From IMG/VR virus record IMGVR_UViG_3300034062_008235, positions 1 to 64,000 of that record: a DNA stretch of 64,000 bases. One strand, written 5' to 3'. The notes beneath the pieces are model-generated. The model was not told the origin of the DNA, searched no databases, and was given only the letters and a program-made list of their open reading frames with translations. Position numbers and translations under genes: made by a program. Positions 1 to 39,480 of this stretch are shown piece after piece. The first letter of the stretch is position 1, and every line of letters starts with the position of its first letter. Source of the DNA: a virus.

Positions 1-631
1 CTACTAAAAATTGGTCATAACCTCTCTGATACTCAAAATCAAGCAACATCATTTCAAGATAAAAGTTATCACCAAACATATCCTTGTATTTCAGAACCAT
101 TTCTTCTGCTTTTTCTTTTCCATATAGCTTCAAAGCTCTTGCTGCTTCTGAAGCGCAACAACAACTAGTAAAGATTATACCTTCTCTGTGTTTCTTTAAT
201 AATTCATGATTAACTCTAGGTTTCCTATAAAAACCTTGTGACCAACCAAGGCTACAAAGTTTAGTTAAGTTTTCGTAACCTTTGTTTGAAACGGCAATGG
301 CTAATATATGACTTGATGTTTTGAATGCTTCGTATTGATCAGGAGAAAGACTCTTTATGAAGTTATTTCTTTCTTCTTCGTTCTCAGTTGCTTCTGTGTG
401 AATAGGATTAACGTAAAGCTCGCAGCCAAAAACGGGCTTAAACTTCTTTTTATCAAATTGTTCTGTTTGTGAGATTAGACTTGGAATTGATGCCATAAGT
501 CCATGATCAGTAACACAAAGATAGTCGCCATGCGTACTCCATCTGTCGCAATATTCTAAAATTTTCCCAAAACCGTCAAGGATACTGTATTCGCTATGTA
601 AATGAAGGTGTTCAAATCCAACAATATTCAT
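1..631 (-). CDS. dnaE: DNA polymerase III alpha subunit (C-family), N-terminal fragment
   Basis: This is the start of a replicative C-family polymerase that runs off the left edge, so only about 210 residues of the PHP domain are visible. The N-terminus carries the diagnostic HLHLHSEYSILDG motif (residues 9-21), then VTDHGLM, FGCELYV and a region with LAIAVSNKGYENL. These are hallmarks of the DnaE PHP module, which binds metal and in some enzymes proofreads. The ATG at 629-631 places the first histidine motif near the N-terminus as is usual for DnaE. It has an AAGGA sequence upstream and a sigma70-like promoter at 670-698. The catalytic palm lies outside the window. T4 relatives normally use a B-family polymerase, so this is a departure from the T4 pattern. 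Confidence 0.93.
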   Translation of the reverse strand, partial: MNIVGFEHLHLHSEYSILDGFGKILEYCDRWSTHGDYLCVTDHGLMASIPSLISQTEQFDKKKFKPVFGCELYVNPIHTEATENEEERNNFIKSLSPDQYEAFKTSSHILAIAVSNKGYENLTKLCSLGWSQGFYRKPRVNHELLKKHREGIIFTSCCCASEAARALKLYGKEKAEEMVLKYKDMFGDNFYLEMMLLDFEYQRGYDQFLV

Positions 632-669
632 GTGATTAACTATCCTTGCTAATAACAAATTACCTCCAC

Positions 670-698
670 ATTTTAACATATGGAGTTGTTTTTGTCAA
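670..698 (-). promoter_or_regulatory. Sigma70-like promoter of dnaE
   Basis: On the minus strand a perfect TTGACA (693-698) is followed by a 17-base spacer and TAAAAT (670-675, five of six matches to TATAAT). Transcription would start near 663, giving a leader of about 30 bases before the dnaE ATG at 631. It therefore looks like a conventional early promoter with a leader. Inferred from consensus only. Confidence 0.6.
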
Positions 699-715
699 TA
701 TTCAAACCATTAATT

Positions 716-1411
716 TTAACTTAAAATGAATGTGTTCCAATGATCTAATGTTCCCACATTAACATAATTTGTTACTTCACATGCCTGAAAAACTTCTTGA
801 TTTGCTATCATGCTTGAGACAACATGAGACATGAATATTTCTTTATGTTTATCTATAATCATTTTAAAATGGTTGATAAAGCTTGTCTTTTTGCTAAACT
901 GATATCCTCCAACACAAAAATCATCTGATACAATTTTCTTTTCAACAACCGAATAAATAATATTGTCTTCATTCTTTACAACATATCCTAATTGTTCTGG
1001 ATTTTTAATTAATTTATTGTTAGAGAGTTTTGAAATGAAAACAAAATTTCCATCATTGCAGTTAAAATCAAAAAAACTGTCACAATCTCTTACTAAAAAA
1101 GATCCATCATTTTTTGTTTTCTCAAGTGTCAAAAACACTGTTTCTGCTGGACCTTTTGTTAAATGATCAATTACAACAATTTGTACAAATTCTCCAAACT
1201 TCTTTTTAACAATTTCGTAAGCATTATATTTGTCAATATGTTCTTTAAGTAATGATATGTACACATTGTTATTTTTGTGCATGTTTCCAATAACATTTTC
1301 AATCATTAATTTACCTTTATTATCTTCTAATAAATATTTTGGTTTTAAATTTGGGAATCTTGAAGATAAACCAGCACAAGGTATAATTATATCCATAATT
1401 TGTTTATCCAT
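716..1411 (-). CDS. Sugar-phosphate / phosphocholine-type nucleotidyltransferase
   Basis: A 231-residue Rossmann-type nucleotidyltransferase. The N-terminus MDIIIPCAGLSSRF followed by a KPK lysine is the signature loop of the NTP_transferase family. A metal-binding aspartate lies in VRDCDSFF near residue 109, and GYVVKNEDN with VVEKK fits the later family motifs. Such enzymes transfer a nucleotide to a sugar phosphate or, in LicC, to phosphocholine. The start could be Met1 or Met6. It overlaps the upstream kinase-like gene by 25 bases, so the two are probably one unit making an activated surface-sugar or choline-type group. The substrate cannot be read from the sequence. Confidence 0.8.
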   Translation of the reverse strand: MDKQIMDIIIPCAGLSSRFPNLKPKYLLEDNKGKLMIENVIGNMHKNNNVYISLLKEHIDKYNAYEIVKKKFGEFVQIVVIDHLTKGPAETVFLTLEKTKNDGSFLVRDCDSFFDFNCNDGNFVFISKLSNNKLIKNPEQLGYVVKNEDNIIYSVVEKKIVSDDFCVGGYQFSKKTSFINHFKMIIDKHKEIFMSHVVSSMIANQEVFQACEVTNYVNVGTLDHWNTFILS

Positions 1412-2133
1412 TTCAACAAAAAACTCTTATCTTGATCGTTATCGCAATAAGGAAGAACCCTAAGTAACATCAAAATTAAAATATAATTATTATTTAATTC
1501 TGGATATATTTCAGATAATTTTTTGAATAAATAATTTATTTTATTTTCATGTTTATTAGCATGCTTTCTTGAATGCCAACCGCAAATCAAATCTTGGTTC
1601 AATTTGGCGAGATCAAACACATAAGAATCATAAACAGATGTAATGGGATCTATCAAAAAGAATTTTTGTTTTTCTGTGTTATAAAGTATGTTGTCTAAAG
1701 TCAAATCACCATGATAGATTGTTTGAGGTATAGTATCAGGCAATTTTTCTATTAGCTCGTATTTTTTAAATACTAAAAAACTAAAATCGCAATAATTTAA
1801 TTTTTCCTCATAAGTATTAATGTAATTTTTAAGAACAGTGACATGTTTAAGTGTATTAAATATGTTTTTTAAAAATTCTAATAATAAATCAATGTCATAA
1901 AAAGAAACAAATTTAATCATATCAATTGATTCTATAAATTCCATATCATAATAATTTTTTTCAATCTTTAATATTTTAGGCATTGAAATGTCAAATTCTT
2001 TCAACACTTCATATCTTTCAATATTTCTTTGAATGTTTTCAAATTTTCTAACAAAAAAATTATTATCTTTTTTTATCTTTAATATTTTGCTTTTAGAAAA
2101 GCCGTAAAATTCTTGAATTATTTGTTCCATCAA
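1387..2133 (-). CDS. Aminoglycoside/choline kinase-like phosphotransferase
   Basis: A 248-residue small-molecule kinase of the APH/choline-kinase fold. The catalytic loop is YHGDLTLDN (His141, Asp143, Asn148), and the metal-binding aspartate is in FLIDP (Asp162). The N-terminal half looks like a reduced kinase N-lobe. A GAGGA ribosome site precedes the ATG. Its partner downstream is a nucleotidyltransferase. This kinase plus nucleotidyltransferase order is seen in surface-decoration loci such as LicA/LicC for phosphocholine. That substrate is a suggestion from context, and a sugar 1-kinase role is equally possible. Confidence 0.75.
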   Translation of the reverse strand: MMEQIIQEFYGFSKSKILKIKKDNNFFVRKFENIQRNIERYEVLKEFDISMPKILKIEKNYYDMEFIESIDMIKFVSFYDIDLLLEFLKNIFNTLKHVTVLKNYINTYEEKLNYCDFSFLVFKKYELIEKLPDTIPQTIYHGDLTLDNILYNTEKQKFFLIDPITSVYDSYVFDLAKLNQDLICGWHSRKHANKHENKINYLFKKLSEIYPELNNNYILILMLLRVLPYCDNDQDKSFLLKWINKLWI

Positions 2134-2184
2134 TTTCCTCGATTTTTAGTATATATGTATATATTTAAGGAACGTAATTGATAT

Positions 2185-2919
2185 ATGCTAATGATTGCGC
2201 CTGCTAAAATGAAAGTTGCAATAATTTTAAGTGGCATGCAGAATGTCTATGAAAGATCTATTGCAAGCATAAAAGAAATTGAAAAAAATTACAAAACACA
2301 TATATTTTGTCATTGTTGGGAAAATGAATCAGAAATGAGAAATTATGGATTTGAATCAATAAAATATCCATTTCCTTCTTGTCCTGCAAAAAGCGTTTTG
2401 GAAAAATATAAAAATATCAATTATAAGATATCGAAAAACAGTCTTTATAAAGATTATTTTGATAGTTTGTATGATCAAATCATTAACAAAAATGGACAAT
2501 CAAATTCAAGTCTTTTTAGTCAATTCTTTAGCATGAACAAAGCAGATAAATTAAGAAGAAATTACGAACGAGACAATTGCATGAAATTCGACATTGTGAT
2601 AAGAATGCGTTTTGATTCTTTAATAAAATCTAAGTTGGTATTTGAAAAATTTGATTTAAAAAAAATAAATGTAGAACGCAGTATGTATCATTTTGCAGAA
2701 CAGGTGCAGCCGGGCAAGCCCAAAGGAATTAATGATCAATTTGCTTTTGGACCCTCGGATTTAATGACTTATTACTTTGATGTGTTTGACGAAATGGTAA
2801 AAATAGCTAATAAAAAAAATTCACGTTTTTGTCCACATTTTATGTTAGGACAACATCTTTTAAATGGAAATATACCTGTAGACTTATTAGGAATTACAGT
2901 TAGAGTTCATCAAGACTAA
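2185..2919 (+). CDS. Putative glycosyltransferase-like surface carbohydrate protein
   Basis: 244 residues. The N-terminus MKVAIILSGMQNVYERS followed by THIFCHCWE, then MKFDIVIRMRFDSLI around residues 133-147, resembles a loosely defined group of capsule and phage proteins with a glycosyltransferase-like layout (an RxRxD-type element after a Rossmann start). The clearest internal start is Met9, but an AAGGA site at about 2168 lies closer to the first ATG. It diverges from the kinase/nucleotidyltransferase pair and may act with it on host or virion glycans. The family is recognised only by general appearance, so the function is uncertain. Confidence 0.5.
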   Translation: MLMIAPAKMKVAIILSGMQNVYERSIASIKEIEKNYKTHIFCHCWENESEMRNYGFESIKYPFPSCPAKSVLEKYKNINYKISKNSLYKDYFDSLYDQIINKNGQSNSSLFSQFFSMNKADKLRRNYERDNCMKFDIVIRMRFDSLIKSKLVFEKFDLKKINVERSMYHFAEQVQPGKPKGINDQFAFGPSDLMTYYFDVFDEMVKIANKKNSRFCPHFMLGQHLLNGNIPVDLLGITVRVHQD

Positions 2920-3144
2920 TTAAACTGTATTGTTATGTACAAGACTTCTTTTGTATTGATTCTCTAACAAACATAAAGATTCACGAAGCCGATAAATTTC
3001 TTTGTTTAATCTTTCAATTGTCATTTGCTGCAAAGAGTCAATAGATTGAAGTTCTTCGTTAAGTTTTTTAAGTTGATTTATTTGATTAAACATTTCAAGA
3101 GGACTTTGTTCAATCAAAATAGAAATATCTTGAATGTCATTCAT
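2920..3144 (-). CDS. Small coiled-coil protein
   Basis: A 74-residue protein, mostly one heptad-rich helix (LEMFNQINQLKKLNEELQS onward). The ATG at 3144 is chosen because AAAGGA lies about nine bases upstream; a longer reading frame to 3198 would run through that site. It overlaps the end of the preceding membrane micro-gene and is the last gene of the long minus-strand run that includes PrkA, YeaH and SpoVR. No family recognised. Confidence 0.6.
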   Translation of the reverse strand: MNDIQDISILIEQSPLEMFNQINQLKKLNEELQSIDSLQQMTIERLNKEIYRLRESLCLLENQYKRSLVHNNTV

Positions 3145-3247
3145 AATAATCGTCCTTTTTTTGTTGGTTTGAAAAATATGCAATTGTTGTAATAACAATT
3201 GTTGTCATTGCTAAGAATAACAAATAATCTATTATTTGCATTGCCAT
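3137..3247 (-). CDS. 36-residue single-pass membrane protein
   Basis: Very small gene. It encodes an N-terminus MAMQIIDYLLFLAMTT, continues as one hydrophobic segment of about 22 residues, and ends in a charged tail (NQQKKDDYYE). It begins directly after the stop of the SpoVR-adjacent gene, and its stop codon overlaps the next gene's start (ATGAATGA). This fits exactly into an otherwise unexplained 100-base gap of a tightly packed operon. Tight coupling on both sides and a clean transmembrane profile support it. Function unknown. Confidence 0.6.
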   Translation of the reverse strand: MAMQIIDYLLFLAMTTIVITTIAYFSNQQKKDDYYE

Positions 3248-3248
3248 T

Positions 3249-3995
3249 TTATGTCTTCACCAAGCCAATCGTTCTTCCACGCAAGTCTCTCCATCCTACC
3301 ATGTTTGGTCCTTCAATATCAAGATTTTTCAATAATAAAAGCCCATTTTTTTCTATTTTGTCCATATAAAAAGAAACATCAACGGGCTTGCTCATTGTGT
3401 CTAGATATAAAATTTTATATTTTTTGTCTTTTTCTAATTGGTAATTTATATTCATATGTTTTCCAAATATATGAGAATTTTTAACAACAAAATCATCCAT
3501 GACTAATGCTTCTGCATTACTCTCTGTGAAAAATAAAGACCATATATAACTAAATGGCATAAAAGAATAGTAATCGCTTAATTTGTAAAATAACTTTGGT
3601 TTATTTTGTGAATAAAATTGCCAAGATTCATTAAACATTTTAAACAAATCGATCCTATTGTAATCTCTAAGAACAAAATTTTTATGTGTATCTGAATCAA
3701 ATTCCAATTTACATTCAGAAAACATACCTTTTAAAAGGATATGCTCGCAGTGTTTTTTAATATGAGTTTCAATTAATTGTAATTCTTGCAATACATTATC
3801 TGAAAAAAATATATTAACAAAGGTTTTATGGCTAAGAATGCTTCTAACAAAAAACGAATTAGCTATCGAATGATCGCAAAACAAATAATTTTTATAATTT
3901 TTATTTTTTAGGCTTTCATCAAATTTTTGATACCACTTAGTAAAAGGCAATCCCGGAGCATTTTGAAAAATAAATCTAAAATCTGGATAATTCAT
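3249..3995 (-). CDS. Unknown protein downstream of SpoVR
   Basis: 248 residues with no recognised motif. It is rich in aromatic and lysine residues and ends with a conserved-looking WRDLRGRTIGLVKT. Its ATG overlaps the SpoVR stop by four bases (ATGA), so it is translationally coupled to the PrkA-YeaH-SpoVR cassette. Whether it takes part in that system or is simply the next gene of the unit cannot be told. Confidence 0.75.
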   Translation of the reverse strand: MNYPDFRFIFQNAPGLPFTKWYQKFDESLKNKNYKNYLFCDHSIANSFFVRSILSHKTFVNIFFSDNVLQELQLIETHIKKHCEHILLKGMFSECKLEFDSDTHKNFVLRDYNRIDLFKMFNESWQFYSQNKPKLFYKLSDYYSFMPFSYIWSLFFTESNAEALVMDDFVVKNSHIFGKHMNINYQLEKDKKYKILYLDTMSKPVDVSFYMDKIEKNGLLLLKNLDIEGPNMVGWRDLRGRTIGLVKT

Positions 3996-5587
3996 AGTTT
4001 ATTCAATTGCTCCCTAGTAATTGATTTTGGATCAGCTGAATCATAATCACCATTCATATCCTGACAATAATAAAAAACTTCGTCGCCATTATGGTTTTTA
4101 GTTTCTAAAACAACTGGCTGTCTCATTAAGGAACAAATAGACTTCATTACTTCGTATGCATAAGGTTTATAAAGTTCGATACCTTCCCACTTATGTTCCA
4201 TAAAAAACATATTACCTTTAAATCTTGGCTCAATCAATTTAATTGATGGTAATCCTCGATTAATATATTTCCTAAGCAACTCTTTCTTGATCTTCTTGTA
4301 ATCTCTACTTTCAATCTTAACTTCACCATTTGGATATCTTTTGTATTCAAAAAATTCGTTCTTTTCGCAAAAATCTTTAGTAAAAAATTCATTAATAAAT
4401 TGATAATCATCATAGTTTTTGCAAACTTCAAAAACTTTTTGCTTACCAAGACCAAGCTTTAGATCCCAATTTTCTTTCTCAAGAGGATCAGCACAGTTTT
4501 CATAATCTGTACCAAATCTACCCTTGTCCCATCTTTCCTCAATATCCATCAAAAGAGTGAATCCAAGTTTATATGGATTCATACTATACTTACCACCAAG
4601 AACACCAGCCTTATGAATTGAATATTCCACAATCCCAGCATCTTCTGTTTCTTGACCAAGGCTACAATAACCTTGTTTTGCAATAATGTGATAATCGCAA
4701 TAACTCGCAAGTCCTTCATTCAATGCTTTGGTTTTACCTTGTGGGCTAAAATAAATTGCTTCATTATAAAGAATTTCTGCAATATCTCGTTGCCAAGGTT
4801 TGAATGGCGCATTTTCTTTAATATAACCAAATATATCAGTCTCTGGTGTAATAAGAAGATTAAGATCTTGCATAATCTCACGTTCTTCAATTTTCTTGTT
4901 TTGAGTTTTTATAAAAGATTTAGTGTTAATCCAATCTTCCATGTAATCATTTTTTGTTTTAATCCTTCGTGGAAATACATAATCTTTATTATCTGTGATG
5001 ACAACGTCTTTTGCTTTTCTTTCTTTCCATATATTCATTGGATCGACAAGCGTTTCTATCCTAAATAAATGATCCATAAATTCAGTAACAGTCTCTCTTC
5101 CATATCGAGACATATACTTTCTTACATTTGATCCATTGTTGGCAAGCTCATTGTGAGCATTCGTATTAGTTCTAGAAAAATGAATGTTGTTTTTGAAAAA
5201 ATGACAATGCCCAAGAGCATGAGCAATAACTGTAATATTATCAAGTAAAGTGTTTGAATTTAGGCAATACAAGTAACATGGTGAAGAATTAATCACCATT
5301 TCATATATTCTATGATTGCCATATAGATATCCTCTTTGCATTTCCTCGTATTCTGCACCAAATTTCCAATGAGGAAACCTTACTGCAAAGCCGCCGTAGC
5401 TTGCAACTTCAGACATTTCATCATGAGAAAGCATTTGAACAATAGTAGGGTAAAAATCCAAACCAAAATCTTTACAAGCTTGAAAAATAGTGGGAATATG
5501 TTTTTGTAATTCTTCTGGAATGGGCACACCGGGAGTGGTTGCTGATCCAAACAAAACTGGTGAGCCGAATAAGAATTTATCTGACAT
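3992..5587 (-). CDS. spoVR: SpoVR / YcgB family protein
   Basis: 531 residues, close to E. coli YcgB (about 510). The family core DFGLDFYPTIVQML, then YGGFAVRFPHWKFGAEYE, is present near residues 35-105. Later HALGHCHFFKNN, DHIFRIETL-like and GEVKIESRDYKK regions match the family. In bacteria SpoVR/YcgB is expressed with PrkA(YeaG) and YeaH under stress or sporulation; its biochemical role is not settled. Here it follows YeaH by two bases and precedes an unknown gene by a four-base overlap. Finding the intact trio in a phage is unusual. Confidence 0.93.
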   Translation of the reverse strand: MSDKFLFGSPVLFGSATTPGVPIPEELQKHIPTIFQACKDFGLDFYPTIVQMLSHDEMSEVASYGGFAVRFPHWKFGAEYEEMQRGYLYGNHRIYEMVINSSPCYLYCLNSNTLLDNITVIAHALGHCHFFKNNIHFSRTNTNAHNELANNGSNVRKYMSRYGRETVTEFMDHLFRIETLVDPMNIWKERKAKDVVITDNKDYVFPRRIKTKNDYMEDWINTKSFIKTQNKKIEEREIMQDLNLLITPETDIFGYIKENAPFKPWQRDIAEILYNEAIYFSPQGKTKALNEGLASYCDYHIIAKQGYCSLGQETEDAGIVEYSIHKAGVLGGKYSMNPYKLGFTLLMDIEERWDKGRFGTDYENCADPLEKENWDLKLGLGKQKVFEVCKNYDDYQFINEFFTKDFCEKNEFFEYKRYPNGEVKIESRDYKKIKKELLRKYINRGLPSIKLIEPRFKGNMFFMEHKWEGIELYKPYAYEVMKSICSLMRQPVVLETKNHNGDEVFYYCQDMNGDYDSADPKSITREQLNKL

Positions 5588-5589
5588 GA

Positions 5590-6777
5590 TTAAAACACCC
5601 GATTGGCACTTTGGAAAGGAGACCCTAAAATATCTTTAATAGCTTTCAGAATAGCTTCATTTCTTCTTTCTTCGCTATTGATAACATCAAATGGAATTTC
5701 TGCAACAACCACATTGTCTTCTAAATCGCCTTCTACAATAGCTTTCTCAACAGATTCTGCAACGCTGTGGTTGTAAGCATAAGCTCCTATTTGAGTTACA
5801 GCAACGAGATTTACAATATTTTGACCAAACTCTTTCTTTAACAGTGAAACAAAAACTTCATTATCATTGTCATAGTTTTCACCATCAGTAAAATAAAAGA
5901 AATAGATGTTCCAATTGTTTGGAGGAAATCTGTTTTCAAATTGTTTTGCGACTAGATCTAAAGCTGTAGAGCATGTGGTGCCACCGCCATTTCTTATCCT
6001 GTAGAAATCTTTGGCATCGACTTCATGAGCGGCAACATCGTGCCATACATAAAGTCTTTCTACTCGTTCATAAAAATTTCGAATATAAGTATCAATCCAA
6101 TATGCCATGTCAGAAACAACGGACACTTTCCTGTCGTCCATAGATCCACTAGCATCTCTGGCAAAGATAACCACAGCATTGCTGGACGGAAATTTAATTT
6201 CTTTGTATTGTCGATATCTTTTGTCAGAGTTAATTGGATTAATCATCTTGACTTTATCTTTAACACCGGGAATTTCATATAAATTGTTAATTTCTCCAGT
6301 TCCGCATAGACGCTTCATTGCTGTAAGCATTGTTCTGCGTGTATGACGAAGAGATTCTGGACCAACAAGAGAAATATTGTTGTATTTTATTTTTATGTCT
6401 TCAAGATTAGCTTGTTGTTTAGGTTTAAGGTCAGGGAGTTGCAATTCATCTTTCATAAAATGAAGGATGTCTTCCATGTCAATCTGAACGATAATGCCTT
6501 CACTTTCATCCTGCCCTGCACCGTTACCTTGTCCTTGACCTTTGTCTTTCCCTAAGACATCACCTTCTTGACCATCTCCACGTCCAACACCATTGGGATT
6601 TTTCCCGTGAAGAAAATGAGGAATGTCAATTGCAGGAATCTTTATAGAAACTTTGCCATTTTTACCACGGTGACGAAAAATTTCACCACTTTTGATGAAC
6701 TTCTTTAAGTTCTTTCTAATCCTACCGCTGACCACATCCCTAAAGTCTTTGTGGTCAGAATCAATCCTTCTGGGCAA
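5590..6777 (-). CDS. yeaH: YeaH-type VWA protein (UPF0229/DUF444)
   Basis: 395 residues, slightly shorter than E. coli YeaH (about 427). The N-terminus RRIDSDHKDFRDVVSGRIR is typical of the family, followed by a glycine/glutamine-rich linker (residues 60-90). The von Willebrand A domain has a complete metal site, VIFARDASGSMDD (DASGS at 208-212), with a later FYFTDGENYDND. An AAGGAG site precedes the ATG. The family is linked genetically with the AAA+ kinase PrkA/YeaG, encoded just upstream. It probably acts as the VWA partner of that ATPase. Confidence 0.93.
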   Translation of the reverse strand: MPRRIDSDHKDFRDVVSGRIRKNLKKFIKSGEIFRHRGKNGKVSIKIPAIDIPHFLHGKNPNGVGRGDGQEGDVLGKDKGQGQGNGAGQDESEGIIVQIDMEDILHFMKDELQLPDLKPKQQANLEDIKIKYNNISLVGPESLRHTRRTMLTAMKRLCGTGEINNLYEIPGVKDKVKMINPINSDKRYRQYKEIKFPSSNAVVIFARDASGSMDDRKVSVVSDMAYWIDTYIRNFYERVERLYVWHDVAAHEVDAKDFYRIRNGGGTTCSTALDLVAKQFENRFPPNNWNIYFFYFTDGENYDNDNEVFVSLLKKEFGQNIVNLVAVTQIGAYAYNHSVAESVEKAIVEGDLEDNVVVAEIPFDVINSEERRNEAILKAIKDILGSPFQSANRVF

Positions 6778-6793
6778 TTTTATTCTCCTTAAA

Positions 6794-8869
6794 TTAGAAC
6801 AGATCTTCTGCTAGATCGCCTCTTGCAAAAATACTGCTTACATAATCAAGCACATCTGTTGCGCTCTGCTCATTATAACCATATTTTTCAACAAGTCTTT
6901 GCTTAACCGCATCAATCTTCTTTTGAACATCTGGGTCAACTGTTGTCGCTCCAGATGAAAATGCACTTAGCTTAATGTGATCTTTTGTGTCTTCAAACAA
7001 TTTTGCTTCCAAAGCTTTCTTAAGGAGGGAATTACTATCCCACCTAAAAACCTTTTGTTTAATAGCAAGATCACCAATAAATGCCGCAATCATTCTTCGG
7101 AAGTCATCACAAGTAGATTCTGGAACATCAATCTTACTCTCAATAGATCGCATTAATTTTTCATCTGGACTTTCTTCTCGTCCAGTAATCTTATTGGTAA
7201 TTTTTGCTTTATTAATGTAAGCCATCAAATTGTCGATATAATTTGCACAAAGCCTGACAATTGCTTCTTCATCTCCAACAAGAGCCTTTTGAACTTCATT
7301 CTTAAGAATGTCATCAAGCTTCTTAGTTGCAAGAGTAACACAGTTTTGATACTTGCGCACCAAATCTTTATTAGAAATAAGAGAATGATTATCAAGTCCA
7401 CTCTTTAAGGCATTTAACACCATGAATGGATTGATGTAATCATGTCTGCTTGACAGCGTAGAAGAAATCTTGTCCTGCACATACCTTGCAGACATACCAG
7501 TCATGCCTTCATTCGGATTCTTATCTCTGAGTTCACGAACTCTATCAATTGTCCATCCGGGCAACATCTTTCCATCGTAAAGATCTGCCTTTTCAGTCAA
7601 AGTAATCTTATTGTCCTTATCATCTTCCAAACGTGTCAACACTGAAAACAATGCAGCAATCTGCAAAGTATGAGGAGCAATATGTTGCTTAATCTTATTC
7701 AAATTATAATCTTGTTCCAACACCTTAAGCTCCTTGCTCCATTCCAAGAGATAAGGAACTTCAATTCTTACAGTTCTGTCCTTTAAAGCTTCCATGTATT
7801 GGTTATTCTTTAACTTTTCGTACTCAGGAATGTTAGTGTGTCCAATGATAGCTTCGTCAATACTAATCTGAGAAAACTTCTTAGGCTTGATTGACTTCTC
7901 TTGTGATGCTCCGAGAAGATCATACAAGAAAGCTGTTTCAAGCTTTAACATTTCAATGAATTCAATAACACCACGATTAGCAACGCAGAATTCCCCATCA
8001 AAATTGAATGTTCTTGGATCAGAATCACTTCCAAATGTTGGCAATAAAGCGAAATTAATATCACCAGTAAGCTCTGTACTATCTTGGTTCTTTTCGTCTT
8101 TAGGTTGGAAAGAAGCAATGCCAACTCTATCTGCTTCAGAATATTGCTTTCGGACAACAACAATGTGGTTGTTTACAACTTTAACCCAATCTCCATTATA
8201 CATCTTGAGTAATTTGTCAAAGAAAAACTTACATTTTGGATTGATTTCACCTTCTACAGCAAGACTATAGAGAGTTGTTCTTTGTGATGGGTCAGCATTG
8301 CCGCTATGAATCTTATTTAGTTCATCAAGTACTTGCTTCCTTACTGTAAGGGGAAGAAGCTTCAAAGGATCTTCATTCATTGGGCAATCACAAACATCGC
8401 TTGTATAAAATCCATTCTGTCCTGTTGGGAGATTAACCCATTTATATGAATACCAAGCACCATTTTCAGTCTTGGAATAATCTTCCATGTTACGTTTAAT
8501 TAATCGACAAATAGTAGATTTAGCAGAACCTACAGGTCCGCATAGAAGAAGTATGCGTTTTTCTGGACCATAATGTCCGGCTGCGCCCTTGAAATGAGCA
8601 ACCAAAGACTCAAGCTGTTCTTCAATACCAAAAACTTTAATTTCTTCATGGTTCTCAAAAAACTTATAAGTTACGATCTTCTTGCGATACTTATCAATTT
8701 CTTCTGTTCCAAATGAAGTAATCATGTCGTAAATTCTTTGATGAGAATTACGAGCCAATTTTGGATTGTTATAACATCTGTTAATATATTCTTCAAAGCC
8801 AAGCTCTTCATGGAGCTTTTTGTAATCATCAAGATTATTGTTATTAGCGAACTGTGTTAAACTAACCAT
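6794..8869 (-). CDS. prkA: PrkA/YeaG serine kinase-type AAA+ protein
   Basis: 691 residues (E. coli YeaG is 644). The AAA_PrkA domain shows Walker A GPVGSAKST (residues 111-119) after the family motif FFENHEEIKVFGIEEQLE, a Walker B-like NRGVIEFIEML, and the conserved KPKKFSQISIDEAIIGHTN stretch. The C-terminal third corresponds to the domain described as kinase-like. PrkA is a AAA+ protein reported as a serine kinase and/or protease-like regulator in nutrient stress. It heads the PrkA-YeaH-SpoVR order seen in bacteria, with a GAGGT ribosome site. Confidence 0.93.
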   Translation of the reverse strand: MVSLTQFANNNNLDDYKKLHEELGFEEYINRCYNNPKLARNSHQRIYDMITSFGTEEIDKYRKKIVTYKFFENHEEIKVFGIEEQLESLVAHFKGAAGHYGPEKRILLLCGPVGSAKSTICRLIKRNMEDYSKTENGAWYSYKWVNLPTGQNGFYTSDVCDCPMNEDPLKLLPLTVRKQVLDELNKIHSGNADPSQRTTLYSLAVEGEINPKCKFFFDKLLKMYNGDWVKVVNNHIVVVRKQYSEADRVGIASFQPKDEKNQDSTELTGDINFALLPTFGSDSDPRTFNFDGEFCVANRGVIEFIEMLKLETAFLYDLLGASQEKSIKPKKFSQISIDEAIIGHTNIPEYEKLKNNQYMEALKDRTVRIEVPYLLEWSKELKVLEQDYNLNKIKQHIAPHTLQIAALFSVLTRLEDDKDNKITLTEKADLYDGKMLPGWTIDRVRELRDKNPNEGMTGMSARYVQDKISSTLSSRHDYINPFMVLNALKSGLDNHSLISNKDLVRKYQNCVTLATKKLDDILKNEVQKALVGDEEAIVRLCANYIDNLMAYINKAKITNKITGREESPDEKLMRSIESKIDVPESTCDDFRRMIAAFIGDLAIKQKVFRWDSNSLLKKALEAKLFEDTKDHIKLSAFSSGATTVDPDVQKKIDAVKQRLVEKYGYNEQSATDVLDYVSSIFARGDLAEDLF

Positions 8870-8870
8870 A

Positions 8871-9251
8871 TTATTCTACCTCTCCAAAGTGGTTACCACT
8901 GGAAATATCATCAATACGCCTATATGGATTTTCTCCAGCGTTTGATGCTTTTTCTGCGTCTCTACGAAGATTCTGAGCTTGTTCTAGATTGTAACCTGCA
9001 CGATAATTAAAATTGTCAAATTTGCTCGTATCTTTCGGTTGAGCAAATTTGACATTGGCATCATTTAACAGTTTTTTCTTTTTCTTTGAATTACAATGTG
9101 GACATGAGACACTAGCATATCGACCTTTAGGATCGAACAATACTAGTGACTCATAATTTTTATTACAATTATTACACAAAAAATTATATGTAGGCAAGAT
9201 ACTAACCCCTGAACCAACCTTAAAATAGTATGGTTCAGGAAAATCATTCAC
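8871..9251 (-). CDS. FmdB-like zinc-ribbon protein
   Basis: 126 residues. Two Cys pairs, CNNC (26/29) and CPHC (50/53), separated by KNYESLVLFDPKGR, form a zinc ribbon of the FmdB regulatory type. A polar C-terminal tail of about 65 residues follows. It ends one base before PrkA and overlaps the acidic protein upstream by eight bases. A role in nucleic-acid or protein binding is likely, but no target is evident. Confidence 0.6.
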   Translation of the reverse strand: MNDFPEPYYFKVGSGVSILPTYNFLCNNCNKNYESLVLFDPKGRYASVSCPHCNSKKKKKLLNDANVKFAQPKDTSKFDNFNYRAGYNLEQAQNLRRDAEKASNAGENPYRRIDDISSGNHFGEVE

Positions 9252-9525
9252 TGATAATTTTTTTTATTTCTTCATATACAATTTTAACTTTTTTCATTCT
9301 AGAAGGAATAGACATGAATGACCACATCCATGAACCTTTACAAATTTTATATGCTTCTTCAATAAGCTTAGCTTGTATTTCTTGTTCTATGAGTATGTTT
9401 TGCTCCATCTGCATAGCAACCATCTGTGAGTCGATGAAGGCATTTTCCTTATCATTTTCATCTTCATCTTCATCCTCATCCTCGAACCCATCATCGCCAT
9501 AAGCAAAATCAAACCTGTTCTTCAT
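9244..9525 (-). CDS. Small acidic protein
   Basis: 93 residues with an extremely acidic patch (DDGFEDEDEDEDENDKEN, about residues 10-27), a helical middle (MEQNILIEQEIQAKLIEEA) and a basic end (SRMKKVKIVYEEIKK). It overlaps genes on both sides and so lies in the same minus-strand operon. The acidic N-terminus could mimic nucleic acid or bind basic partners; this is only a suggestion. Confidence 0.65.
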   Translation of the reverse strand: MKNRFDFAYGDDGFEDEDEDEDENDKENAFIDSQMVAMQMEQNILIEQEIQAKLIEEAYKICKGSWMWSFMSIPSRMKKVKIVYEEIKKIISE

Positions 9526-10102
9526 GGCGAACCTCCTGATTTAAAAGAGTTCTTATGCTTTTGGCATCTTCCCATATAGATTCTAATTTAATCTGATTTA
9601 AACTTTTATCTCTAGAGAATAAACCGATATTATTTACTAGCTTGTGCCTAACTTCTTCAAAATTATTTTTAATATCCCAAAATGTCGCATGACAGTACTT
9701 ATTTACTGCTATATCTTCAATTAAAAATTCTTCATTATCTGGTGTCTCAGAACGCATAATCATAAAATCACTATCAAAATTTTTATTAAATTTAAATTTT
9801 CGCATACAAAAAACATTAGAAGTTACAATTGCGTAAGACTTATCCCAGATGTCAATATCTATAAGCTGATTCGGATGGAAGCAATCATGAATATAAATTA
9901 CAGGAAAATTTAGTTTTCTAGCCCACCCAGCAAAATCAAAAGAAGGATTTCCAACAACAATAATAATTGGATTTATTTTTGGCAAATATTTAAAAAATGA
10001 GAACCAACATAAAAACGAAAAAATATCATGAGGTTTGTGCGGAGGGACAATAATTCCTAAATTAAATTTTGAATAATCGGTTTTTGGAAATAAAAGCATC
10101 AA
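9509..10102 (-). CDS. Unknown protein with Rossmann-like appearance
   Basis: 197 residues. Alternating hydrophobic strands (NPIIIVVGNPSFDFAGWARK, then FPVIYIHDCF, then SYAIVTSNVFCMRKF) suggest an alpha/beta fold, but no catalytic motif is recognised. Overlaps the next gene by 17 bases and the preceding small gene by four. Confident as a gene, not as a function. Confidence 0.7.
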   Translation of the reverse strand: MMLLFPKTDYSKFNLGIIVPPHKPHDIFSFLCWFSFFKYLPKINPIIIVVGNPSFDFAGWARKLNFPVIYIHDCFHPNQLIDIDIWDKSYAIVTSNVFCMRKFKFNKNFDSDFMIMRSETPDNEEFLIEDIAVNKYCHATFWDIKNNFEEVRHKLVNNIGLFSRDKSLNQIKLESIWEDAKSIRTLLNQEVRHEEQV

Positions 10103-10245
10103 ATCTTAAAGAGTTTTTTCATTTCTTTTTTTGCAGAAGCTGGTTGTGGATTTTGATAATTCATCCTCAATACAGTAAAAGAATTATGGCGTTTACCACC
10201 ATGACCGTTAGCCTCATCCATTTTAATGAATTCTTTAAAAGTCAT
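10099..10245 (-). CDS. 48-residue protein with capsid-targeting-like N-terminus
   Basis: A small gene beginning MTFKEFIKMDEANGHGGK and ending KKEMKKLFKI. Its start overlaps the stop of the upstream gene (ATGA) and an AGGTGG site precedes it. The N-terminus fits the recurring M-x-T-F-x-x-F/Y/W pattern of this window, with a possible protease site after Met-Asp-Glu (residue 11). The remainder is basic, as are several T4 internal proteins. Predicted to be packaged in the capsid; inference only. Confidence 0.65.
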   Translation of the reverse strand: MTFKEFIKMDEANGHGGKRHNSFTVLRMNYQNPQPASAKKEMKKLFKI

Positions 10246-10622
10246 GGGTTGCCACCTAAAGCAACATTTACTAACTGAGAAGCATTAGCTGGAGGATTTG
10301 TCTTAGTCAAATCTTGCATCGCTAATTGAAAATTTGGATCTTTGCGCAAAGTATCAATTGCATCTTTTGTCTTACCAGTTTGATATAACCTTAAAGCAGC
10401 TGAATTCTTTTGAGCAGCTGCATCAAGCTTCTTTCTAACAACAGGATTAATTTGCATTTGTTTACCTGCCTGATTAGGTGCTGATGACTGATTAGGTGCT
10501 GATGACTGATTACCAGCAGTAGGTGCCGCAGGAGCTGTAGGAGCTGTAGGAGCTGTACCAGTAGTTGGAGTGGTTCCTGTTTGTTCTTCTAGATTATTTA
10601 GAAATTTTTTAAATGATAACAT
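10242..10622 (-). CDS. Pro/Ala/Thr-rich protein with capsid-targeting-like N-terminus
   Basis: 126 residues starting MLSFKKFLNNLEEQTG at the ATG 10620-10622. An upstream extension of the frame is rejected because it would overlap the divergent gene and its ribosome site. A Thr/Ala/Pro and Ser/Asn/Gln repeat linker (TAPTAPTAPAAPTA; NQSSAPNQSSAPNQ) precedes a helical C-terminus. Possible cleavage after Leu-Glu-Glu (residue 13). AATAAATA ends five bases before the ATG and there is no ribosome site, pointing to a leaderless late transcript. It heads the minus-strand run through PrkA to 2920. Confidence 0.75.
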   Translation of the reverse strand: MLSFKKFLNNLEEQTGTTPTTGTAPTAPTAPAAPTAGNQSSAPNQSSAPNQAGKQMQINPVVRKKLDAAAQKNSAALRLYQTGKTKDAIDTLRKDPNFQLAMQDLTKTNPPANASQLVNVALGGNP

Positions 10623-10627
10623 GTCTA

Positions 10628-10635
10628 TATTTATT
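10628..10635 (-). promoter_or_regulatory. T4-late-like promoter box, leaderless position
   Basis: AATAAATA on the minus strand, seven of eight matches to the T4 late consensus TATAAATA. It ends exactly five bases before the ATG at 10622. In T4 the box ends at about -6, so the transcript would begin on the start codon. The same box and spacing recur at 45640-45647. Confidence 0.5.
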
Positions 10636-10650
10636 GAGGAGGACTCAAAA

Positions 10651-10779
10651 ATGAAAACATTTATCACATTGGTAGTAGCTTTTGTTTTAGGTTTTTTAGT
10701 TGGCGTAACTTCAACAATCATTGGACAATTTCATTACTGCCCATTTGTTAAAGCAAAACTCATCCATAAGCATGAATAA
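10651..10779 (+). CDS. 42-residue membrane protein
   Basis: Starts MKTFITLVVAFVLGFLVG and has one transmembrane helix (about residues 4-26), then a short tail with KAKLIHKHE. A strong GAGGAG ribosome site lies eight to ten bases before the ATG at 10651. Its last 20 bases overlap the converging HldE-like gene. Despite the MKTF start, the following residues are a membrane segment and there is no hydrophobic-x-Glu site, so it is not counted with the capsid-targeting set. Confidence 0.65.
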   Translation: MKTFITLVVAFVLGFLVGVTSTIIGQFHYCPFVKAKLIHKHE

Positions 10780-12130
10780 TTTTATTAATAATATTAGTTG
10801 TTGATAGACCTTCAACTAAAGGAATGAATTCAATTCTATCAACAACATTGGCTCCAGCAATGTTTTTGCCTCGCCAATCCTCACCTTTGACCAAAACATT
10901 CGGCTTAATTGCCTCAATTACACTTTGAGGAAACTCTTCTTCCAAAACAACAATAAAATCAACACATTCTATTGCTTTCAACATTTCAATCCTTTGACCC
11001 AAAGGAATTATTGGTCTTTTTTCACCCTTCAATTTAGCTATACTTTCATCTGAATTAATGCCAACGCATAGCTTGTCACCAAAAGATTTTGCCTGTTTTA
11101 AAGATGATATATGACCGAAATGTGTAAGATCCATGCAACCATTAGTCCAAACTAAATTAAAATCCCTATTCCTCAACACGGCTGGATTAGTAATCAATTT
11201 GTCTTTAACAAAAAAATCTGATGGATTCAAAGGTTTATTATAACGATTAGCAACATATTTTGTTCCAGCTTCAAATGCAATAGCTATTGCTTCTTGCAAA
11301 TCAATTCCTGCGCTTAAAGCCATAGCCAAAAATGCTATATAAGCATCTCCAGCACCAGTCAGGTTTTCCGGTTTTATAGATTTTTTATCAGGAATTACAT
11401 AATATATTTTTTCATTATGATCAATTGCGCTTACACCCTCTCCTGCATTTGTAATCACAACATTATCACATCCCAGCAAAGCTTGAAGCCATTTTAACTG
11501 ATCTTCAACTTTTTCTTTATTAACAAATCTTTTTGCCTCAACAGAATTTGGCTTAAATAAATAACATCCTTCCCAAATATTAAGATTTTTCTTAGGATCA
11601 ACAAGTGATTTACTTTGCTTTAAATAATTCTTATGCCAATTTGTAGAAAATAAACCTTTATCATAATCAGAAAATATGTTAATGTCTGAATCAGGAATTT
11701 TTATGTCACTTAGATATCTTGATATATCAAATAAACCAAAATTAGGCTGTTCAATGTCCCACCTAGTTAATGGATGAAAGTCCTTATAAAATCTTTTTTT
11801 TATTGGATTTTTAACATCTTTTGAAACAATAGAATACTTTGTATCAATGCCATTTAGTTCACATATGTCTTGCGTTTCTGGACTAATAAGCGAAATCAAG
11901 TTTGTCTTAATGTTAAAATTACGGAATTGCATAACAACATTTGCGGCACCACCACACAATACTTTATGCGGTTTGTCTGTAACAGAACAATGAATGGGAA
12001 TGGGAAACTCTGGACTAATACGATCAACTTCTACTTGGTAATACTCATCAATTAAAACATCTCCAATAATATTTATTGTAATGTTTGATTTGTTTAATTT
12101 GTCAAAAAAACTTGAAAAAAAATTGCCCAT
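10760..12130 (-). CDS. hldE: Bifunctional heptose 7-phosphate kinase / ADP-heptose synthase-like
   Basis: 456 residues in two domains. Residues 1-315 are a PfkB/RfaE1-type sugar kinase, with CGGAANVVMQF, FSDYDKGLF, VDPKKN and the catalytic NLTGAGDAYIAF. Residues 325-456 are a cytidylyltransferase-like domain with the HxGH motif in DLTHFGHISSLK, then VGINSDESIAKLKGEKRP, LVKGEDW and GLSTTNII (the ISTT-type motif). The HldE architecture is complete, so it should phosphorylate heptose 7-phosphate and later adenylylate heptose 1-phosphate to ADP-heptose. In bacteria this feeds lipopolysaccharide core synthesis. No GmhA or GmhB partner is in the window. Confidence 0.9.
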   Translation of the reverse strand: MGNFFSSFFDKLNKSNITINIIGDVLIDEYYQVEVDRISPEFPIPIHCSVTDKPHKVLCGGAANVVMQFRNFNIKTNLISLISPETQDICELNGIDTKYSIVSKDVKNPIKKRFYKDFHPLTRWDIEQPNFGLFDISRYLSDIKIPDSDINIFSDYDKGLFSTNWHKNYLKQSKSLVDPKKNLNIWEGCYLFKPNSVEAKRFVNKEKVEDQLKWLQALLGCDNVVITNAGEGVSAIDHNEKIYYVIPDKKSIKPENLTGAGDAYIAFLAMALSAGIDLQEAIAIAFEAGTKYVANRYNKPLNPSDFFVKDKLITNPAVLRNRDFNLVWTNGCMDLTHFGHISSLKQAKSFGDKLCVGINSDESIAKLKGEKRPIIPLGQRIEMLKAIECVDFIVVLEEEFPQSVIEAIKPNVLVKGEDWRGKNIAGANVVDRIEFIPLVEGLSTTNIINKIIHAYG

Positions 12131-12163: not shown

Positions 12164-13489
12164 ATGCTTAATTCATTAGACAAAAAAATATTTGACAAAA
12201 AATTTGTTGAATTTTTAGTTGAGAAAAATATCCATCCTTCACATTTGCTAAAACTAGCACATCAGATTAATTCTGAAACATTACTAAACGAAGAAGGAAT
12301 GACAGGTTTTTTGGGTGGTATTGGAGGAGGACTGACAGGTCTTTACCAAGGATTCAAAGCTGGTTGGGGTACAAAAGATATAAATGCAGCAGAAGACAGA
12401 TTAAAAGATCAATTAGATTTTGCATACAGAACATTTTCGAATAGTATTGAAAAAGCTACAGGAAACCCAGCAACAGCACGATTGGTTTTAGACAGACTGA
12501 GAACTGGCAGTGATGTTTTTACAGACGCTGCTATTGACAAACCAAGTCTTATATCAGGCAGATCACCAACATCACCATCTGGTGGCAGCGGCACCGATTG
12601 GCTAAATAATCTTTTAGGAGGAGGGGGAGGAGGTAGCAGTCCCAGAAGAAGAAGAACAAGAACAACTGCCCCAATAGATCCTCTTGACAGCGATACTCCA
12701 GTGGCAATAGCCGAACCACCATCAGCATCACCAGTTGCGCCATCACCATCACCAACTACACCATCACCATCACCATCACCATCACCATCACCATCACCAT
12801 CACCATCACCATCACCATCAATTGGTGGATTGACTCCAACGCCAACATCAACACCAACTACCACACCGACTCCTACGCCAACTGCTCCCCCAAAAATGGG
12901 ACCAGAGAAAGAAAAAACTTTAGAAAACCTTATCGAAAAAGATTTTTTAGAAAATTTCAACAATTTTGTTGAAAATATTTTTTATAAAATTGAAAATGAT
13001 GGAGATTTTGTTAAAAGAAAATTCCCATTTAAGACTTTAAGTGTCATAAAAAGACTTTATCAATATAAGTCACTTCCACTCAAAATGTCATATTTTGATC
13101 TTCACAGAAAAAACATGAGAATCATAGGTGCAAAAAACTGGAAAGAAATGATGAAGGAGATTATAAAAACATTTGAATCTAATAAATGTGATTTTGGCAA
13201 TGAAGAGTTTGTTAAAGATATTGGAACCATTTTTAATGACACTTACAATGCAGGTGGATATTATGAGAGGTTAATAACTGATTTAACTAGATATAATGAT
13301 AATTGGAAAAATTTAATAAAGGCTTTGAAAGAAATAGGAAAATATATTGATGATTTTTGCGAAAAAAATCCAAACAAATGTTCTGACAAAGGCGGAAAAT
13401 ATGGTGAAAAACTTTTAAATAATCTAGAAGAAAATAAAAACATCACTTTTGCAAATTGGTTATTAATTCAAGAAAATATACTATTTTAA
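12164..13489 (+). CDS. Large low-complexity protein with Ser-Pro repeats, probable virion protein
   Basis: 441 residues. A helical N-terminus (residues 1-42) leads to NSETLLNEEG, which holds a Leu-Asn-Glu protease-like site. A Gly-rich segment (GFLGGIGGGLTG) follows. The middle is low complexity: GGGGGS, RRRRTRT, then a run of Ser-Pro and Thr-Pro repeats (about 196-240). The C-terminal 200 residues are alpha-helical and charged. Its AAGG ribosome site is eight bases before the ATG. It leads the plus-strand cluster with the papain-like protease. Domain layout suggests an extended virion or internal protein. No family recognised. Confidence 0.75.
   Translation: MLNSLDKKIFDKKFVEFLVEKNIHPSHLLKLAHQINSETLLNEEGMTGFLGGIGGGLTGLYQGFKAGWGTKDINAAEDRLKDQLDFAYRTFSNSIEKATGNPATARLVLDRLRTGSDVFTDAAIDKPSLISGRSPTSPSGGSGTDWLNNLLGGGGGGSSPRRRRTRTTAPIDPLDSDTPVAIAEPPSASPVAPSPSPTTPSPSPSPSPSPSPSPSPSPSIGGLTPTPTSTPTTTPTPTPTAPPKMGPEKEKTLENLIEKDFLENFNNFVENIFYKIENDGDFVKRKFPFKTLSVIKRLYQYKSLPLKMSYFDLHRKNMRIIGAKNWKEMMKEIIKTFESNKCDFGNEEFVKDIGTIFNDTYNAGGYYERLITDLTRYNDNWKNLIKALKEIGKYIDDFCEKNPNKCSDKGGKYGEKLLNNLEENKNITFANWLLIQENILF
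12753..12820 (+). repeat. Hexanucleotide repeat encoding Ser-Pro
   Basis: Tandem ccatca units read as alternating Ser and Pro in the 12164 gene, followed by imperfect Thr-Pro repeats. Being in frame with a six-base unit, changes in copy number would alter linker length without a frameshift. Confidence 0.85.
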
Positions 13490-18062: not shown

Positions 18063-18833
18063 TCATCTCGTGTTTTGCCGAATAGCGTTTCCAAGCTCTT
18101 TCAAATCGTCATTAATGCCGTTAACAAGATCATTAACCTGCTGATTCCTCGCATAAACAGGATTACTTCTTAAGATATTAGCATAATTATTAAGAGTGGC
18201 TTGAATCTGTCGATGATTTCTAGTAATAGCTTGTCCATATCGAGCTTGTTGTTGTCCTTGTTGTTGTCCTTGTTGTTGTCCTTGTTGTTGTCCTTGTTGT
18301 TGTCCTTGTTGTTGTCCTTGTTGTTGTCCTTGTTGTTGTCCTTGTTGTTGTCCTTGTTGTTGTCCTTGTTGTCGTCCTTGTTGTCGTCCTTGTCGTCGTT
18401 GTCGTCCTTGTTGTTGTCCTTGTTGTTGTCCTTGTTGTTGTCCTTGTTGTTGTCCTTGTTGTTGTCCTTGTTGTTGTCCTTGTTGTTGTCCTTGTTGTTG
18501 TCCTTGTTGTTGTCCTTGTTGTTGTCCTTGTTGTTGTGGTTGGCTAGAGCCGAATGCAGCGTTATAAAGACCTTTTCCCATATTATAGACACCTTTTCCT
18601 AAATAATTGGCACCTTGTCCTACTTTATTACCAACGTATCTAGCAGCATCAGTTGCGCCTGTTGCATCAAGAGCACTGCCAATAGCCTGACCACCAAGAT
18701 ATGAACCCGCTGCTCCTAAAGCAGCACCTGCATAAGGTGCCGCTGCCATGGCAGCGGGTGCAAGTAATGGAAAAACTTCATTAAGGGCGTTCTCTTCATC
18801 TCTTTTTTCAACATATTCTGCAAAAGTTCTCAT
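18063..18833 (-). CDS. Capsid-targeting-like protein with long QQQG repeat
   Basis: 256 residues from the ATG at 18833, which follows AGGAGA. The N-terminus MRTFAEYVEKRDEEN leads to a Leu-Asn-Glu site at residue 19, then a hydrophobic Ala/Gly-rich region (LLAPAAMAAAPYAGAALGAA). About two dozen Gln-Gln-Gln-Gly units follow, interrupted by a short Arg-rich patch (GRQRRQGRQQGRQQ). The C-terminal helix resembles the neighbouring 17465 protein. Opposite-strand frames across the repeat are artefacts of the 12-base unit. Likely an internal or injected virion protein. Confidence 0.75.
   Translation of the reverse strand: MRTFAEYVEKRDEENALNEVFPLLAPAAMAAAPYAGAALGAAGSYLGGQAIGSALDATGATDAARYVGNKVGQGANYLGKGVYNMGKGLYNAAFGSSQPQQQGQQQGQQQGQQQGQQQGQQQGQQQGQQQGQQQGQQQGQQQGRQRRQGRQQGRQQGQQQGQQQGQQQGQQQGQQQGQQQGQQQGQQQGQQQGQQQARYGQAITRNHRQIQATLNNYANILRSNPVYARNQQVNDLVNGINDDLKELGNAIRQNTR
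18246..18538. repeat. Tandem 12-bp repeat encoding Gln-Gln-Gln-Gly
   Basis: About 24 copies of a 12-base unit (ccttgttgttgt on the plus strand), interrupted near 18370-18412 by variant units that encode arginine. The unit is in frame, so slippage would change protein length by four residues at a time. Copy number may differ between isolates or be misassembled. Confidence 0.9.
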
Positions 18834-18857
18834 GACTAATCTCCTGTACAAATACAA

Positions 18858-18895: not shown

Positions 18896-19105
18896 TCATG
18901 ATTTTCTATGTTTCCTTTTTGGATTGACGTAATCTGTGCTAGTTAATTGTTGAATTGGTCCGCCTAATCCATATTGTCCCACATTAAAAAATTGTGGAAA
19001 TTTTCTACCTATCATCCCAGCACCAATTGGCAAAGCAAAATTAGCTACATCCCCTGTGCTAGTGGAAACTTCATCTATTTTCAACCAATATTTGAAGCCT
19101 TTCAT
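18896..19105 (-). CDS. 69-residue protein with capsid-targeting-like N-terminus
   Basis: Begins MKGFKYWLKIDEVSTS, with a possible cut after Ile-Asp-Glu (residue 12). The rest is Gly/Phe-rich (FALPIGAGMIGRKFPQFFN) and ends in a basic tail (NPKRKHRKS). The start overlaps the stop of the upstream gene by four bases and follows GGGTAAAG. The size, basic tail and N-terminus are like T4 internal proteins. Confidence 0.68.
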   Translation of the reverse strand: MKGFKYWLKIDEVSTSTGDVANFALPIGAGMIGRKFPQFFNVGQYGLGGPIQQLTSTDYVNPKRKHRKS

Positions 19106-20106: not shown

Positions 20107-20131
20107 ATCATAAATACAATAGGTGATAAAA
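20099..20131 (+). repeat. 33-bp promoter/ribosome-site repeat, copy 1
   Basis: This segment is identical to 21089-21121. It contains CATAAATA (20109-20116), a T4-late-like box, then an AGGTG ribosome site just before the ATG at 20132. It looks like a duplicated expression cassette placed before two genes whose proteins share the capsid-targeting-like N-terminus. Confidence 0.85.
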
Positions 20132-21091: not shown

Positions 21092-21121
21092 AATGAATCA
21101 TAAATACAATAGGTGATAAAA
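21089..21121 (+). repeat. 33-bp promoter/ribosome-site repeat, copy 2
   Basis: Exact copy of 20099-20131, with CATAAATA at 21099-21106 and the AGGTG ribosome site. It directly precedes the ATG at 21121. Its first bases are also the stop of the metallopeptidase gene. Confidence 0.85.
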
Positions 21122-21558
21122 TGAAAACATTCCGCAATTGGTTATCTAAAAGGTTTTCTGAGCAAACATATGGTGTTCAACCTCCTAATCCGCAGAGAGG
21201 TTATAATCAATCAGGCAACAATGCTAATGTTGATATTCAAGATCGAGATATACAAAGATTTTCAATAGAAGAATTAGCAAACAAATTCTCTGCGGATAAA
21301 AATAAATTAGATTTAGTTTTAAAGAAAAAAATAGAATTGTCGGGCGGATTGGACAATTTGTTCAGAAAAAATGTATACAACATTTATAAAATAGCAAGCC
21401 TACAAGCTGATGGGCACATATCAAGCTACATAACGCCACAAAAAGCAACAGAATTACTAAAAAGAGAAGATTTAGATAGACACACAAAAAAATACTTAAC
21501 AGTAATCGAACAAAAAGATGCTGTTAAAAATGCGTTGAACAACAGATATAGATTGTAA
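21121..21558 (+). CDS. Capsid-targeting-like protein of unknown function
   Basis: 145 residues. N-terminus MKTFRNWLSKRFSEQTYG, with a possible cut after Phe-Ser-Glu (residue 14). A polar Gln/Asn/Pro-rich linker follows (VQPPNPQRGYNQSGNN), then a basic helical domain (SIEELANKFSADKNKLDLVL onward). Expressed from the second copy of the 33-bp cassette. No family recognised; predicted internal virion protein. Confidence 0.72.
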   Translation: MKTFRNWLSKRFSEQTYGVQPPNPQRGYNQSGNNANVDIQDRDIQRFSIEELANKFSADKNKLDLVLKKKIELSGGLDNLFRKNVYNIYKIASLQADGHISSYITPQKATELLKREDLDRHTKKYLTVIEQKDAVKNALNNRYRL

Positions 21559-39462: not shown

Positions 39463-39467
39463 CGTAC

Positions 39468-39475: not shown

Positions 39476-39480
39476 TTTGT

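Follow-up and report, generated by a model that had tools for sequence, protein, structure and literature searches.

PrkA, YeaH and SpoVR are widespread in bacteria and their biochemical job is still unsolved. They are encoded together in the bacterial prkA-yeaH-spoVR operon (yeaG-yeaH plus ycgB in E. coli). In E. coli, yeaG and yeaH act jointly during nitrogen starvation, with effects on toxin-antitoxin transcription and on RpoS (PMC4664914, PMC6299236); YcgB, YeaH and YeaG co-occur, and sensitivity to antimicrobial peptides is affected by ycgB/yeaH (PMC2375023). The joint action and the co-occurrence support one unit, not the chemistry of that unit. The label 'serine kinase' for PrkA rests on old work: weak kinase activity was described for E. 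coli YeaG (Tagourti 2008, as cited in PMC6299236), whereas purified B. anthracis PrkA showed neither autophosphorylation nor protease activity at a detectable level, its C-terminal domain lacks a kinase P-loop and AlphaFold models the protein as a clade III AAA+ ring (PMC13001217). Since a bacterial PrkA gave no detectable kinase or protease activity, we regard the kinase identity as doubtful.

A comparable working logic, an AAA+ ring with a VWA/MIDAS adaptor, is known from NorQ/NorD and RavA/ViaA, in which a MoxR AAA+ protein has a VWA partner. Iron insertion into the client enzyme by NorQ/NorD depends on ATP hydrolysis as well as on the MIDAS (PMC9976466). The likeness is only one of working: PrkA lies outside the MoxR family, and the client in the trio is putative.

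The three families and their phage-borne state are already known from annotations of phiYS40 and RsoM2USA. The Thermus phages phiYS40, TMA, phiLo, MN1 and Lalka carry all three in a cluster. Ralstonia jumbo phage RsoM2USA has annotated SpoVR (ORF28; 56% identity to a Vibrio copy) and PrkA (ORF30) genes near each other (PMC8504454), and the text of that paper does not link the two. The closest public record to the locus studied here is LR756511, an unannotated 595-kb uncultured huge phage with T4-like capsid, portal and terminase; the main text of the 2020 huge-phage paper does not mention the trio genes. Our literature search, which covered sources outside subscription journals, found no paper that treats the phage trio as a unit. 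What we consider new is the complete trio as a conserved and probably near-core feature of a huge-phage clade, recurring in other lineages.

Gene content of the locus

The window analysed here covers the first 64 kb of a linear IMG/VR contig 91,057 bp long. The contig has the gene set of a T4-like myovirus, with UvsX, a DnaB-like helicase, ssDNA-binding protein, SbcC/D, ribonucleotide reductase, tail sheath and baseplate hub. The genes for PrkA, a YeaH-like VWA protein and SpoVR lie in tandem on the minus strand with intergenic gaps of 2 and 16 nt (Table 1), and Pfam matches bear out the original prediction of a full-length trio in tight, operon-like order. The predicted cassette (3249-8869) proved too wide: the trio lies within 3992-8869, while approximately the first 740 bases belong to a separate 248-aa ORF, which is present in close relatives only and gave zero matches in Pfam and PHROG searches.

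Table 1. Positions of the trio, its motifs and the adjoining genes in the window
Feature	Position	Strand	Evidence or remark
DNA polymerase III alpha-like (PHP) gene, N-terminal part	1..679	-	Truncated by contig end; downstream of trio
248-aa ORF outside trio	3249..3995	-	4-nt overlap with SpoVR stop
SpoVR-family protein, 531 aa	3992..5587	-	Pfam PF04293 E 1.4e-100
SpoVR NEGLASYCD, residues 290-298	4694..4720	-	E291 invariant; intein insertion site in sister phages
SpoVR HALGH (H123, H127), putative metal site	5207..5221	-	Both His invariant in all groups
DUF444/YeaH-like VWA protein, 395 aa	5590..6777	-	Pfam PF04285 E 8.5e-63
VWA protein MIDAS DASGS, residues 208-212	6142..6156	-	Residue alignment
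PrkA-family AAA+ ATPase, 691 aa	6794..8869	-	Pfam AAA_PrkA PF08298 E 3.1e-77; PrkA C-terminal PF06798 E 7.4e-73
PrkA Walker A GPVGSAKS, residues 111-118	8516..8539	-	Residue alignment
Zn-ribbon (FmdB-like) small protein	8871..9251	-	PF09723 E 4.8e-07, under curated cut-off
93-aa acidic protein, no assigned function	9244..9525	-	Kept upstream in 71/87 loci
197-aa protein, no assigned function	9509..10102	-	Kept upstream in 69/87 loci
HldE-like kinase/cytidylyltransferase	10760..12130	-	Pfam PF01467 2.8e-18, PF00294 9.2e-15; phrog_7878 4.9e-34

The Zn-ribbon gene stands immediately upstream of PrkA in 65 of 87 loci, and its counterpart in locus L050 scores over the curated cut-off (PF09723 E 3.1e-10). 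The HldE-like gene is found farther upstream of the trio in 68 of the 87. On the downstream side, window positions 1..679 cluster with L026:15217-16566 (PHP 7.4e-30, DNA_pol3_alpha 2.7e-24). The stretch between SpoVR and this polymerase gene (716-2919) is an accessory patch of phrog_3980, an APH-like kinase and phrog_13607, each of which only two compared loci have, including L007. Long Ser-Pro/Thr-Pro repeats (SPSPSP) occur in the proteins at window 12164-13489 (+) and contig 86498-91057 (-); the latter sits at the contig end, where the assembly may have broken.

Conserved residues of the three proteins

The motifs named in the original prediction (Walker A, MIDAS, SpoVR) are intact. Pfam places an AAA domain at residues 25-418 of PrkA and the C-terminal domain at 426-676, hence the protein is full length. 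It carries all nine residues that are constant in bacterial PrkA ATPase motifs: G111, K117, S118, E303, E306, N346, R365, R413 and R462. K117, N346, R365, R413 and R462 agree with the bacterial and viral groups alike, and the first three of the nine do not vary in an alignment of 67 rows from bacteria and 108 from clade A, the viral group of the window. PDB entries 9xip/9xiq/9xir hold a relative (E 7.8e-205). The AAA+ partner thus belongs to the PrkA family and not to MoxR; in a profile search RavA matched PrkA at E 0.05 only.

The VWA protein combines the YeaH/DUF444 family match with a VWA fold and a complete MIDAS (D208-x-S-x-S212, T267, D298), in which D208, S210 and S212 are unvarying in every group aligned. 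Its AF2 model (pLDDT 80.8) matches many VWA domains, including the NorD VWA in NorQD (9qhe_G, E 8.5e-6). We found no solved structure similar by sequence to DUF444 or SpoVR.

The SpoVR match spans positions 5-404 of the 407 in the profile, and the protein carries H73, E96, H123xxxH127 and N290-E291-G292. One position of this region differs between groups: residue 298 is His in all 44 bacterial and all 47 marine-phage copies, but clade A has Asp there in 70 of its 71 copies, as does the window. The phage copies mark what is essential, namely the AAA+ ATPase residues, the MIDAS and the SpoVR His/Glu site, and show position 298 free to change. A comparison of the SpoVR AF2 model (pLDDT 88.5) with solved folds in the PDB gave nothing significant (best E 0.07). 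Zincin-type proteins (IrrE, YbeY, SprT) are among the faint, insignificant matches. We considered SpoVR as a zincin or classic zinc protease and rejected it, as H123-A-L-G-H127 lacks the Glu of HExxH and the fold matches are not significant.

SpoVR is also an intein hotspot. LAGLIDADG inteins occur at two sites, after N100 and inside NEGxA, in many sister phages and some bacterial homologues, and several phage proteins have both. Carriers are the phage loci L028, L030, L033, L034, L058, L059, L067, L196, L198, L026, L048, L050, L052, L083 and L203 and the bacterial loci L095, L136 and L158; those in L026, L158, L198 and L203 were checked with Pfam and the others called by insertion pattern. 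The SpoVR of the window has no intein. Inteins prefer conserved, essential sites, and their placement fits the idea that the N100 and NEGxA motifs may be functional.

Distribution, selection and phylogeny

A PrkA scan of IMG/VR yielded 130 related contigs, the best 80 of which have 58-100% identity. The gene order 197-aa gene, 93-aa gene, Zn ribbon, PrkA, VWA, SpoVR repeats across related contigs, and in clade A every one of the 68 viral loci that extend 6.5 kb or more downstream has the complete trio (both gaps <700 nt in 52). LR756511 has the trio in matching order (PrkA 62.6%, SpoVR 53%, YeaH 52% identity to the window), with the difference that small ORFs separate PrkA from YeaH. dN/dS is 0.03-0.10 against relatives at 85-97% PrkA identity, where synonymous sites are unsaturated, and reaches up to 0.12 with the next closest relatives. 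Judged from these codon comparisons, the trio alleles are under purifying selection. Hence inactive alleles, one of the two observations that would have spoken against the original prediction, are not what we see at the sequence level. Two relatives deserve mention on their own: a 320-kb one has an in-frame TAA inside its PrkA match (G027:C1:39686-41713), and on a 533-kb contig a short ORF (G039:C1:247136-247324) matches PrkA residues 562-624 (40%, E 3e-9) approximately 2.5 kb from a ClpP gene, as a remnant or duplicate fragment.

Most of the closest bacterial PrkA proteins among the matches listed belong to Myxococcota, Bdellovibrionota and Planctomycetota, others to Calditrichota and Chloroflexota, with 44-57% identity in the best segment. 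The phylogeny against bacterial and phage copies agrees with the phage-borne state that had been predicted and puts the window inside a single phage clade. Of the 34 dereplicated rows that represent the viral group in the PrkA tree, 33 form this clade (SH-aLRT 100, stem 0.48; the exception is L199), which adjoins copies from Myxococcota, Bdellovibrionota and Planctomycetota. In the trees built from VWA and from SpoVR the window again falls among these viruses (support 97 and 100); the three genes have long been inherited together. The phage copies share family membership, full length and motifs with the bacterial operon and differ from it in forming their own clade, with PrkA at most about 55% identical to the nearest bacteria among the matches listed, in the Asp for His at SpoVR 298 and in their phage neighbours.

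As the bacteria nearest to the viral clade, in the three phyla that adjoin it, have the identical order PrkA-VWA-SpoVR, the simplest reading of the trees is that the whole operon would have been acquired once, anciently, from bacteria and then passed on by vertical descent. The direction from bacteria to phage is likely, with the best 80 listed as the bacterial sample. The trio of marine contigs and Thermus phages sits on separate branches and mostly has the order VWA-SpoVR-PrkA; the Thermus PrkA proteins have 27-31% identity to that of the window, and head or packaging genes adjoin in some. Other huge phages with the trio have an enterobacterial-type PrkA, again on a separate branch. In 10 of 51 bacterial loci PrkA is present with no YeaH and SpoVR nearby, therefore PrkA may also act alone.

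We also used the major capsid protein as an independent way to collect contigs of the window's lineage. G035 (341 kb) and G038 (343 kb) contain PrkA, SpoVR and UvsX. Capsid-selected contigs without PrkA, including those of 390 kb and 533 kb, also lack UvsX in six of six tested, and both genes turn up on contigs whose IDs neighbour theirs in the same samples (L078 for L262, L062 for L270, L200 for L317); in a fourth pair (L025 for L284) PrkA is present and UvsX was not found in the record searched. Because UvsX is missing too and the neighbouring-ID contigs supply both, we explain the gaps by split assemblies and reject a true absence of PrkA from the 390-kb and 533-kb contigs. The trio therefore looks near-core in this T4-like huge-phage clade, in which no record is rated complete.

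Genomic surroundings and timing

Across the clade, the genes conserved near the trio have nucleotide/DNA and sugar-nucleotide roles: thymidylate synthase and the HldE-like enzyme upstream, and the DNA polymerase III alpha (PHP) gene downstream. The trio is thus linked to genes of DNA metabolism, and in large relatives a distance of at least 100 kb separates it from portal, capsid, terminase and prohead protease. The original prediction of late expression from a late-like box heading the unit does not hold. We counted the box TATAAATA 10 times where 8.5 were expected, a number that 35 of 100 shuffles reach; the minus strand has no exact copy from the cassette up to 15839, and the unit has none at its head. 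We rejected it as a late promoter at this chance level. With such neighbours and distant head genes, late expression is unsupported and middle expression would fit better.

Capsid-targeting-like genes had also been placed in the unit. One gene does fit (10242-10721, with an internal MLSFKKFLNN), and T4 capsid-targeting-like N-termini (MKTFxxW/Y/F-L) are enriched contig-wide (11 of 114 ORFs versus 2 of 440 internal Met), but none is found on the three trio proteins. They occur in the window at 10242-10721, 18063-18857, 18896-19105, 20123-21091, 21121-21558, 36198-37007, 37037-37354 and 38983-39498, and on the rest of the contig at 66211-66696 and 67409-67860. Possibly the contig encodes many head-packaged proteins.

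Two proteostasis genes recur beside the trio. In 29 clade-A loci (L022-L025, L037-L040, L045, L054, L057, L200 and others) SpoVR is directly followed by a ClpP-like gene whose Ser and His are conserved. It was considered as the prohead protease and rejected, since the T4-type S77 protease adjoins the capsid gene; some of these phages have a second ClpP elsewhere besides the S77 protease. A ClpP search of the window's own contig found none. In 25 of 51 marine viral loci (L207, L210, L211, L216 and 21 others) a GroEL-like gene lies directly downstream of PrkA, with PhoH farther on; the call rests on phrog_5725 (2.3e-18 for L216), with no Pfam match.

Discussion

Several unrelated phage lineages keep the trio together, which is strong comparative evidence for one functional unit. 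Most likely a bacterial stress operon has become a standard genome part of a giant-phage family, for protein remodelling during infection. With moderate confidence we propose that the trio is a vertically inherited, near-core phage operon, bacterial in origin, for a three-part protein-remodelling system. PrkA would be an ATP-driven AAA+ ring, and the YeaH-like VWA protein an adaptor that holds the client through the metal of its MIDAS. SpoVR, with its conserved His/Glu metal-like site, would be the dedicated client or effector. By analogy to NorQ/NorD and their client, ring and adaptor in complex might activate SpoVR or load it with metal; the analogy crosses AAA+ families. A copy of its own would make this activity available to the phage in the infected cell regardless of the growth state of the host. 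The remodelling reading is backed by the proteostasis genes that adjoin the trio in two phage lineages, by the match of the VWA model to the NorD VWA and by the AAA+ nature of a bacterial PrkA in which neither autophosphorylation nor protease activity could be detected. Against it count the lack of a significant solved-fold match for SpoVR, the window contig without a ClpP-like gene and the bacterial loci with PrkA alone. The cultured Thermus phages offer a tractable system for deleting and purifying the unit.

It is possible, although we hold this more tentatively, that the trio imposes or blunts the YeaG/YeaH starvation and stress physiology and so keeps a slow or starved host productive. 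The E. coli effects on nitrogen starvation, toxin-antitoxin systems, RpoS and peptide sensitivity speak for this, and it is compatible with the remodelling mechanism. However, those effects are indirect and host-specific, and near-core conservation in diverse phages suggests a need within the phage cycle and not an ecological add-on. The label 'stress cassette' carries a bacterial phenotype over to the phage, where the same use is unsupported. More doubtful is a virus-specific core machine with a re-tuned SpoVR site (298 His to Asp), often with a ClpP-like or GroEL-like partner, and a substrate unlike that of the bacterial stress operon.

That the trio aids head building or rides in the particle is unlikely. 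The idea comes from the Thermus phages: in Lalka8 the trio lies between the portal/minor head protein and TerL, and in phiYS40 close to TerL. For the window's clade we rejected a head-morphogenesis module, because the head genes are far off, and the trio proteins lack capsid-targeting-like N-termini. Less likely still is a Ser/Thr kinase module in which PrkA phosphorylates host or virion proteins; the historic annotation and the weak YeaG activity favour it, but the B. anthracis results stand against it and the residues conserved in the phage copies are those of an AAA+ ATPase. A host fragment, misassembly or decaying passenger, suggested by the contig end near the locus and by the host-like yeaGH at a record end in phage LAU1, has a negligible probability, as the clade is purely viral, phage genes flank the trio on both sides, dN/dS is low and related contigs with the same cassette and flanks from many independent metagenomes already refute it. 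The LAU1 case concerns an Enterobacter phage record (MN688132.1, positions 1-3308; L005) that starts with host-type yeaG-yeaH beside phage genes, which looks like the bacterial flank of a prophage and not like phage cargo.
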